From the NCBI GenBank assembly GCA_963971425.1, contig OZ020524.1:17611845-17675844 (forward strand): a stretch of DNA of 64,000 nucleotides, read 5' to 3'. The stretch's first letter is position 1, and each line of letters opens with the position of its first letter. The position numbers and the translations under genes were made by a program. This stretch comes from Bryoerythrophyllum caledonicum (Eukaryota > Streptophyta > Bryopsida > Pottiales > Pottiaceae). Positions 45,117-58,139 of the stretch are shown here, one piece after another. A model generated the notes under the pieces. It ran no database searches, was not told the origin of the DNA, and saw nothing but the letters and a program-made list of their open reading frames with translations.

Positions 45117-45347
45117 GAAGAAGAACGCCGGTCCCCGGAGGAGGCCGGCGTGAGTAAAGTGTCCGTTCGTTCCACCACTAAGTCCATGCCCACCGGGCAT
45201 GGGTTAGTAGTATGGAACTACTTCCCCCTTTCGAGGGTGGACACTATGTACCAGTAGCAAGTAACCAATATCAAAGGACCCGAGGTCCCAAAAAGTTTTT
45301 AAAAGAGGGAGGGCAAGTACAAAGAGTGCAAAAATGCAAGTGTAGAT

Positions 45348-48300
45348 CTATGGAGGGGGGTTTAAAGTGTCCGGAAGGGGTTGATTGTTTTCAAGTTTAC
45401 GTTTATGTAGGAGTATTGACATAGCATGTTGAATTGCATTAGTGTTAATATTTGAAAAGGTGGTTTGGATTGAAGTGATGGGGATTTTAAAGGTTTCTTC
45501 AATAATTGTCATTGAGGGGATGAAGGTGGTGGCTCTAGCACCCGCGGTGATAACAATGAGGGGGTCTACTTTCCATCCTAGTGCTTGAATATCATCAAGT
45601 AGTGGTTGGTATTTATTTGTTTTGTTTGAGATGGTGTCCGGGGAGAATCTATCATTACAGTATGTGAATTCAATAAATTGGATGGTGAGATTAGGGTCTA
45701 TATGGTTTGGTGGGGGGTCTTTGTAAGAAAGTCCTCTAACACATAGTAGGTCCGGTTTGAATCTTGCATTACAATGACATCTTTGGGTATTACAGATGCA
45801 TGGTAATAGCCACGGAGGGACCGTATTTTCTTGTGGATTGTCATTAAAGGTTCCGGCATTCATGAGAATGAAACACCGAGATTTGGTTGATGATATGAGT
45901 AGTTTACGAATAGCCCATACGGCTTTATTGTGTCTCTTGACAATTAGTGAGTGTATATGGGGGTTTTGGCACTTGAGTAAGACATGTAGCCATGTGTCTG
46001 GGTCCGTGGTGTTACAAATTGGACATGTAATTGTAGGGAATCTTTCTATTCCAAAGAAGAGTTGTTTACGGGCATTCCCCATGTATTGTCCGGTGCGAAA
46101 TTTGATTAGGCATGTGATTTGTGAATCCGTTATAATGGGGTTTTTCCAAAAATTGTTGGATAGAACGTTATGAATGTTTGGGTTGCCAGTCCATTTATCA
46201 ATATTGGGGAAGTTTTCTGTAAGTTGTTTTAGGTTATTTACAAGATCATGTTTTTTGAGGTATTTGTCCAAGAATCGTATGGGGCCTTTGTCAGGAGTTT
46301 CACCCATAGAGGGCCATTCATATCTATGGAAGTAGTATGGGGTGGCATGGGCGTGTTCGTATGGGTGTTCGGCATTCTTGTGGGTTTTTTCTCTTCCTTC
46401 CTTTGCTAGTTTGTCGGCTTGTTCATTACCGTCGATATTAGCATGGGCACGGACTTTATGGAGTGTAGTAATTTGTGTACGGTTTTGGAGCATTTCAACC
46501 ATAGATGTAAGGATAGTTTTATCCGGGTGACTATTGTGTAAAGTAGGGTGTTTAATATGTGTATTAAGGAGGTATAGTACATTTATGCAATCTGTAAAAA
46601 TGTGAGCCGGTTCGTGTGGGTATTGGGTGGTGATTATTTTAAGGGTTTTGTGTATAGCCATCATTTCGGCTCTTAGAATATTTTGGAGTCCATGTAGTCT
46701 TTTACCTAATTTAATTTGTTTGGTTGAATTGTATATCCCATAACCGGCTTTTTCACGATGCCAATGTCCCGGGCTTACTTCGGTTGGTTCTTTGAAGGAG
46801 CCGTCAGTGTAGTAGCTGAAGTTGGGGTCAAATTTAGGGTCTGTATTAATTTGGTAGTAGGAGAGGGGGAGGCTTAATTCGGCAATTTGTGATGTGGAGA
46901 TGTTTGTGTGGGGGGCTTTAGACCATTTTTTGTTGCGATTTACACGGGTTGAAATGGGTGTGGGAGAAGCAATTGCGGTATAGACCTTGTTAATGTTTAG
47001 ATTTTTTGCTATCAAAGTTAGATGAGTAAGGTTGTCTAGAGTACCTATTTCACAAGTTTGTTGGTGTATACATAAGATACGTAGAGTTGCCGGTTCAAGG
47101 CGGGGTGTTTGTATTTGCGGTGGTATAGTGGGTTCTTTGTATGTCATAGAGTCCGCTTCGAATAGTACTATGATGTGGGAGTCCGGGAATGGGCCTAAGT
47201 GTGGGTTAGGGTTATGGTACCAATGATTGTCGGGAGTGATAATAATGGTGATGTTGTGGTTGGGGTCATTATTTGCCGCTAGGCGTGCCCAATGTATTGC
47301 TTGTTGAGTTTCTTCTCCGTTGTGAGGGTGTGCAAGGCCTATTCCACTCCACTTGTAATCAAAAGCTTTACCAAGAGAACCAAAAATCATATCGCGTTCG
47401 AATGGAGAGTAAAATTTTGAGATTTTTGTGGGGCATGTAACGGGGGATGAGAAGTATGAATGTGTGATATTCAGGGATGTAATAAGGTAGTCTAGGATAG
47501 GATCGGGTAATGTGTAGTGTGCATTTTTAAGGGGGTCATTTTTGGGTATTCGGTAGTTATATCTTTGGTATAGCCAAACAATTTCGGTTTCAAAAGTTTG
47601 GGGTATTGGTTCAATGCTAATGGAGGATTGTAGTGCATTGTGATATTGGTTCCATAGCCAATGTAGTCTAGTGAGTGGTATGGTAATTAGGTGTCTCCCA
47701 TTACCTTCGTATATGTGGGCATTATCTTGTTGTATTTTAATAGTATTTGTTTGTGCGAGGATGTCTGTTTCGGGGTTGCATTCGGTTGTAAGGATGTTAA
47801 GGAGGGGGATAATAAGAGGTGGCGTGACAAATCTATTATCTCGAGGTTGTGCTTGAGGGTGATGTAATTGTATGATATTTAGGTAGTGATTGTTTTGAGT
47901 TCTAAGGTAGTATTGTGTGAGGATGACGATGTTATGTAATGAAGTATTTGGGTTGTGCCAAGGAAAAAGATTTCGTTGTGGGAGCCATTTGGCGTAGGAG
48001 GTGTTATTGTGGGACCAATGGCATAGGTATGACGTATATTGTTTGCTTATATTGTGAGAGTCAATATATTTTCTATGTTTGTGCGCGGTTATGTTGTTTA
48101 TTGGATGTATGGAGGGATTTTTTAATATGTGTGGTGGAGGGGTATGTGGTCGTGAATGTGGTGAGTTTGGAGGGGTTAATGGGAGATTGGTGTTATGGTG
48201 GGTGTCATTGTGATCGATGATGTATGAGTCTTTGAGTGTGTACGGTGTGGCGTGAGTGTTGCAAGGGTTGGGGCATATAGGGAGGCATGGAGGATGACAA

Positions 48301-57500: not shown

Positions 57501-58139
57501 GTATGTGACCCTAACTTACATTTCCTAACATGAGGTTTTGCAAGATGCCTTTTGCAATTAGACTTAGATTCTATACTGTGAAACGATGTAGGCAGCGTAT
57601 TGTAATGAAAAAACTTAGCTGATTTTGTTGAATGTTGTCCTTGATAGAGTGATCTTGTGTCTCGGTGGCTGTTTCGTGTCTTCTGTAGGCAGTGGTTCTT
57701 CTTCATAGTAGTGCTGATGCTCTGGTTGAGGAGAGGTAAGGTGTATGGCATGTCTATGGTGTCATGGTAACCTAAATCTGGATCTAATTGATTGAGAGAT
57801 GATATGGGGCTGCAACCTCTAGATCTAGATCTGGGCCAACACAGAGCCCCGCCACAGATCTACTCTCCCAAACTAGCTCTAGATTGTTGCAACCTCCTAC
57901 ATACTTTGCATCAATAGATCTAAGATACGCAATCCCTCAACACTTTGCACACCATAAGCATACCGTTCAGCAACAAAGGACGTGCACACAGGGATTTACA
58001 ATGAGCCCAGCAACCCTCATTGATGTGTGCATTGCAATTGCGCCTAACACCTAGAAACCTCTCCTCACCAGGTTTTGCGGAGCTACTCTTCTCTCATCTC
58101 TAAAACCTTGTGTACCCTTAATATCTACAAGTCACTCCT
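54557..58139 (-). other. 5' leader of LINE E with a 1,065-codon low-complexity open frame
   Basis: The frame from the ATG at 57751 to ORF1 stays open for 3.2 kb without a recognised domain, with Gln, Ala, Arg and Thr-rich stretches. It contains two diverged internal repeats, NNMTSASTQRIKHDDTAPPM and NRMTSTSTKGDKHNDSSPPL. Either it is an N-terminal extension of ORF1 or a GC-rich leader that is open by chance. 57752-58139 is the 5' UTR with AGATCT-rich sequence and the conserved leader box. Confidence 0.5.

Follow-up and report, generated by a model that had tools for sequence, protein, structure and literature searches.

Dualen/RandI elements are long interspersed nuclear elements (LINEs) that were reportedly described from Chlamydomonas by Kojima and Fujiwara in 2005. 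In the excerpts available of the papers cited here, Dualen encodes an apurinic/apyrimidinic-type endonuclease (APE), a restriction-like endonuclease (RLE) and RNase H, and supposedly connects the LINEs that bear an RLE with those that bear an APE (PMC4640811). The same kind of source lists Dualen/RandI for green algae (PMC4438587), reports Dualen in "all species" of a Chlamydomonas comparison (PMC8226300) and expanded in cryptophytes, Guillardia excepted (PMC12747079), and gives Dualen/RandI ends as (ATT)n or (CTATTT)n, the 3' repeats being non-A in 8/8 green-algal RandI families (PMC3747384). We analysed a 64,000-nt stretch of the moss Bryoerythrophyllum caledonicum (the window; assembly GCA_963971425.1, contig OZ020524.1, forward strand 17,611,845 to 17,675,844), in which a prediction made from the letters alone had placed an apparently intact 13-kb LINE with two endonucleases. 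The element is very probably a land-plant LINE of Dualen/RandI type, and a very young, complete member, with an ORF1 (open reading frame 1) and a giant ORF2 polyprotein which would combine 2A release, 3' recognition and target priming. Like Dualen/RandI of green algae as described in those excerpts, it combines APE and RLE in a single element and has RNase H and a non-A 3' repeat; it differs in its land-plant host, and the likeness is one of description, not of sequence.

Both ORFs are open as predicted and adjoin each other (Table 1). ORF2 runs from a poly-Q leader through a 2A sequence, a domain of unassigned kind, APE, reverse transcriptase (RT), a linker with a chromo-like motif, a PCIF1-like domain and RNase H to a CCHC finger with RLE. 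The C-terminal finger carries RHN, KPD and E motifs, and a structure model of the C-terminus gave the R2 nuclease fold, so the predicted R2-type RLE passed its fold check. APE motifs lie upstream of the RT, and we call the APE because these are in place and relatives from the same search carry PF03372. The claim of both endonucleases in one protein of Dualen/RandI type was supported. The order APE-RT-PCIF1-RNH-RLE is also found in Haematococcus lacustris proteins annotated as hypothetical (P0063, P0074 and P0101 among others), many of which have a 2A before the APE. Many Haematococcus lacustris proteins also have a Josephin-type peptidase (PF02099), whereas none was found in the window ORF2 by Pfam. 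Differing precomputed peptidase domains, namely Ulp1-type (PF02902), OTU (PF02338) and Josephin (PF02099), were seen in family proteins P0002, P0008, P0028 and P0145.

Between the window copy and the young ORF1-less subfamily described below, the ratio of nonsynonymous to synonymous substitution (dN/dS) was 0.09 for APE, 0.09 for RT, 0.14 for the PCIF1-like domain, 0.06 for RNase H and 0.07 for RLE. These values are rough because dS is 1.4-2.4, and the N-terminal and chromo-like parts are saturated in the same pair; all five domains are under purifying selection. The outer copy described below gave a weak Chromo match (E 0.053, under the family cut-off). The model did not show a chromodomain, its first 188 residues having a predicted local distance difference test score (pLDDT) <50. 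The N-terminal part of the query may be misaligned in the first structure alignment.

R2 elements have a structured 3' end and insert specifically into ribosomal DNA (rDNA), and are not known to have an APE or PCIF1-like domain. The closest RTs in the PDB were R2 of turtle and zebra finch (best E 8e-33), then human L1 (7e-21) and R2Bm (8e-19). R2 (R2Tg, R2Bm) thus offers the closest solved RT and shares the CCHC/RLE fold, whereas the moss element has APE motifs beside its RLE, and its family occupies 30 different sites rather than one fixed rDNA site. In a 58-row RT tree, three moss rows joined P0001 and P0006 (Shimodaira-Hasegawa-like approximate likelihood-ratio test, SH-aLRT, 96) within a group that includes the three Haematococcus rows, and the Dualen-like label needed one change among the labelled rows (support 91). 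A 40-row tree was concordant (family support 85); both trees were quick searches without bootstrap.

Plant L1 elements have APE and RT. They can also carry RNase H, according to the available part of one paper (PMC4640811), and APE motifs are present here. That the element is an ordinary L1-type LINE of plants, with a zinc finger and RNase H at the C-terminus that just resemble an RLE, is nevertheless hardly credible, since the structure model places an R2-type nuclease fold at the C-terminus. An L1 position of the RT, one of two findings that the original prediction had named as fatal to it, was rejected by the approximately unbiased (AU) test when the moss rows were forced with human L1, the sole L1 row (p = 0.018). 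The L1 reading and that of a chimeric artefact were both rejected on the recurrence of the same domain order in Haematococcus and metagenomic proteins. It is also very unlikely that an APE-only element of the I/Tad/Ingi side became fused to an R2-like C-terminus and forms a separate group apart from algal Dualen. The RT alone leaves a union with three APE-only rows unrejected; such a fusion is disfavoured because Haematococcus proteins repeat the order, PCIF1-like domain included, and because the moss rows join P0001/P0006, which have the same architecture.

Several points weigh against the Dualen/RandI assignment. The AU test did not reject the union with those APE-only rows (P0052, fungal; P0054, Trypanosoma cruzi; P0059; p = 0.115), in which the family hidden Markov models (HMMs) found no RLE or PCIF1-like match. 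An unlabelled APE-RT protein without RLE or PCIF1 match, P0051, lies inside a fork of support 80, and family support across trees is 80-91% SH-aLRT. Named RandI rows are not among the tree rows, and Haematococcus proteins stand in for named RandI/Dualen proteins in the comparisons. Searched at E up to 1, Pfam listed no RNase H family for the window ORF2, and the APE family PF03372 was missing as well, so the predicted APE stands on its motifs and its relatives; E-values of the family domain HMMs on the window protein are circular, the HMMs having been built with that protein included. The best PDB row for the RLE profile was ATG16-1 (E 0.03), taken as a chance match, with R2Bm next (E 0.1). 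Even so, in the best trees the element falls among APE+RLE proteins of the same architecture from Haematococcus and metagenomes.

Because the host is a moss, to which the ACR3 of the window also points, the predicted extension of the group into streptophytes holds. Searches for Dualen in plants or RandI in moss, with subscription journals mostly outside their coverage, returned no moss report, and none was among the matches listed for the wider literature on the group. As far as the available excerpts go, the known range is widened from green algae and cryptophytes, and a domain absent from the descriptions found is added. A land-plant host with many identical copies would be material for direct tests of two-endonuclease use and of a cap-methyltransferase-like domain within a LINE.

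The original prediction had not included this domain, the nesting or the presence of identical copies outside the window. The PCIF1-like domain lies between RT and RNase H, and both Pfam and the structure model gave the fold of PCIF1/CAPAM, the methyltransferase that adds m6Am at mRNA caps; in the model, the methyltransferase region of PCIF1/CAPAM (6irv, 6irx) matches over about 225 residues. Unlike PCIF1/CAPAM, the moss domain lacks the catalytic NPPF and is built into the polyprotein of a retrotransposon. AHPHN stands at this place in the window copy and in two further moss copies, and FASPLN, kept in PCIF1 and many members, is FSSPVT in the window. In a held-out set of 109 proteins (80 from Haematococcus), 53 carried the other four domains (33 from Haematococcus), and 51 of these 53 had the PCIF1-like domain, as did 19 of the 20 from outside Haematococcus. 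The two without a match count against a universal presence. Among the first 60 proteins, 19/19 complete ones had it, a circular count, as the HMM was built with the window protein; the held-out count is not circular. By these sequence comparisons the PCIF1-like domain is a regular constituent of elements in this group. The descriptions of Dualen/RandI found in the literature, in the excerpts available, make no mention of it.

The domain probably serves to bind the element RNA, at its capped 5' end or elsewhere, rather than to methylate it; binding is favoured because the catalytic motif is degenerate in most members examined. An active methyltransferase, marking the RNA cap (m6Am-like) or DNA, would fit the fold and family match to PCIF1, the purifying selection and the few members that keep NPP or PPF (P0005, P0009, P0017, P0019, P0020, P0023). 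It is unlikely, given that NPEY is the commonest form at this place, that the three aligned moss copies have HPHN and that FASPLN is replaced in the window. A more tentative extension of the binding role is that Dualen/RandI is a group with a captured PCIF1-like cap module, which might recognise the element's RNA by its capped 5' end, with the RT bound to the structured 3' module, and with integration completed by APE on one strand and RLE on the other. We think this doubtful; one protein would then check both ends of the template, which would explain the near-full-length young copies sampled, with 5' ends within about 55 bp.

The limits of the element, and thus its length, follow from the 12-bp sequence duplicated at both flanks, exactly as predicted. 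We scanned an assembly of 437 Mb in 894 contigs, where copy numbers are lower bounds, because scores were computed for 150 of the 2614 first-look places of the PCIF1 Pfam search and for 40 of the 2959 of the DNA search. A 1201-bp piece of the element was 100% identical at 12 or more places, window included (among the 40 scored), so the element is very young and recently copied. Five further copies of the window subfamily, sampled at their ends, had the window 5' untranslated region (UTR) at 98.9-100% identity about 9 kb upstream of the query piece; because this is the expected distance, they are probably full length (the middle is unread). Perfect target-site duplications (TSDs) of 11-12 bp were present in three of the five, and the slices of the other two stop short of the 5' end. 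The identical copies, some with fresh duplications, agree with the predicted intactness. In the three copies with TSDs (ends L123-L128), the duplication is separated from the common 5' end by about 15-46 nt that vary from copy to copy and are not shared with the window.

A second subfamily, about 71% identical to the element in DNA, has one frame of 3087 aa, which a hand count finds at no fewer than 33 places. In the copies read, ORF1 is absent and the leader continues in frame into ORF2, as at L021/L022 (G000:C8:15550000-15569999). Two copies were identical over 9,882 bp, and the 5' slices of ten more were 99.4-100% identical. TSDs were sought in 32 copies sharing one PF12237 score (27 with the 3087-aa frame), of which four were unreadable at one end; 25 of the remaining 28 had TSDs of 11-15 bp (mode 12), and three had only end matches of 6-7 bp, which is chance level. 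One guess is that ORF1-less copies move with ORF1 supplied in trans.

The 231-nt 3' region (45117-45347) had a fold z of -4.3, and 16 of another 20 fetched loci contain its 135-nt module, with none in the fetched slices of L090, L092, L095 and L107. In a 22-sequence alignment, 8 of 34 predicted pairs were changed on both sides, a number reached by 1 of 500 shuffles, while slid versions gave 1-3. Pairing held in 96.4% of alignment cells versus 38-47% when slid, a test biased toward that structure, which came from the very alignment tested. L101 and L103 are each present with two rows; L105 and L106, with the match length and identity of L104, and the short piece at 7308 were left out. Rfam at gathering scores gave no match over the window. 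The tail consists of TTC repeats without poly(A), as expected of a Dualen/RandI 3' end; one of the five sampled copies had TTC and then a T run. Of 30 insertion sites, T is the first letter in 29, where it may equally belong to the tail, and G follows in 17, both being raw counts without background comparison.

Conservation of the module suggests that the ORF2 protein recognises its own RNA by this structured 3' end. One of the two endonucleases would nick the target, with a weak preference for ..TG, reverse transcription would be primed at the nick, and the second strand would be cut 11-13 bp away, giving the target duplication. By analogy with R2 and L1, APE or RLE may make the first nick and the other may aid on the second strand, the roles being unallocated in this scheme of target-primed reverse transcription and nuclease sharing.

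The 13-kb element is nested inside another 13-kb member of the same family, flanked by its TSD TTGTAAATGAGTTG at 34011-34024 and 60141-60154. This outer member is 89-91% identical to the young ORF1-less subfamily over ORF2 and the 3' part, and its frames are in pieces.

Table 1. Features of the moss element and its surroundings in the window (residues are those of the respective frame).
Feature	Position	Strand	Remarks
Full-length non-LTR retrotransposon, very probably Dualen/RandI-type	45117..58139	-	13,023 bp; perfect 12-bp TSD, 3' module and tail, identical copies elsewhere
TSD copy 1, CAAATCGAGCCA	45105..45116	.	sequence match
TSD copy 2, CAAATCGAGCCA	58140..58151	.	in element orientation TAGA followed by TGGCTCGATTTG; agrees with TG preference
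Outer, older family member, host of the inserted element	34025..60140	+	~13.08 kb minus insert; broken frames
3' structured RNA module	45117..45253	-	about 135 nt, ending in TTC repeats
ORF2 frame	45348..52967	-	2539 aa; first ATG is residue 94
CCHC finger and R2-type RLE	45414..46175	-	residues 2265-2518
RNase H	46395..46814	-	residues 2052-2191
PCIF1/CAPAM-like methyltransferase-fold domain	46998..47816	-	residues about 1718-1990; NPPF place is AHPH at 47322-47333
Chromo-like motif	47898..48116	-	residues 1618-1690; tentative; conserved aromatic residues
RT	48822..50060	-	residues 970-1382; PF00078 E 1.1e-27
APE-type endonuclease domain	50964..51728	-	residues 414-668; motifs; exonuclease III matches E 0.035-0.047
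2A sequence DIETNPGP	52386..52409	-	residues 187-194; also before APE in Haematococcus proteins
(CAA)n tract, poly-Q in ORF2 leader	52477..52659	-	about 61 units
ORF1 frame	52970..57751	-	1593 aa; leader ~54437-57751 open, conservation poor
Conserved ORF1 domain	52985..54436	-	residues 1106-1589; 32% identity with the ORF1 frames in two further copies of the family
2A-like DVVEENPGP upstream of ORF1 domain	54482..54508	-	doubtful

The ORF2 frame is open as predicted, whereas its first ATG comes late and is followed by ~60 CAA codons and then DIETNPGP, which we take to be a 2A by its consensus; conservation with other copies starts at residue 176, just before it. The poly-Q leader may be released by this sequence. 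ORF1 was likewise open throughout, and only about its last 490 residues are conserved; that domain, with 32% identity between subfamilies, matched no Pfam family above cut-off. DVVEENPGP, presumably a 2A-like motif, is doubtful because D is missing at the canonical place. The leader has ~1,100 stop-free codons, a GC content of 0.49 versus 0.41-0.42 in the ORF1 domain and ORF2, and by eye splice-like GTAAG and TTTCACCAG stretches.

Two further decayed family members, apparently 5'-truncated, lie at 29454-32283 (+) and 12622-13886 (-); no convincing TSD was found at either. An 84-nt 3' terminal piece at 7306-7389 (+), with its own perfect 12-bp duplication TGCTAGGCAACA, is an extreme 5' truncation retaining part of the 3' module. 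Elsewhere in the assembly, two open matK-like genes lie on two contigs (L108, L109; G000:C821, C894) and possibly reflect a second plastid source. A frame at 61423-61899 (+) of the window resembles a DDE transposase, as judged by eye, and the ACR3 of the window is 92% identical to that of Ceratodon purpureus, the next named match being Marchantia paleacea at 68%.
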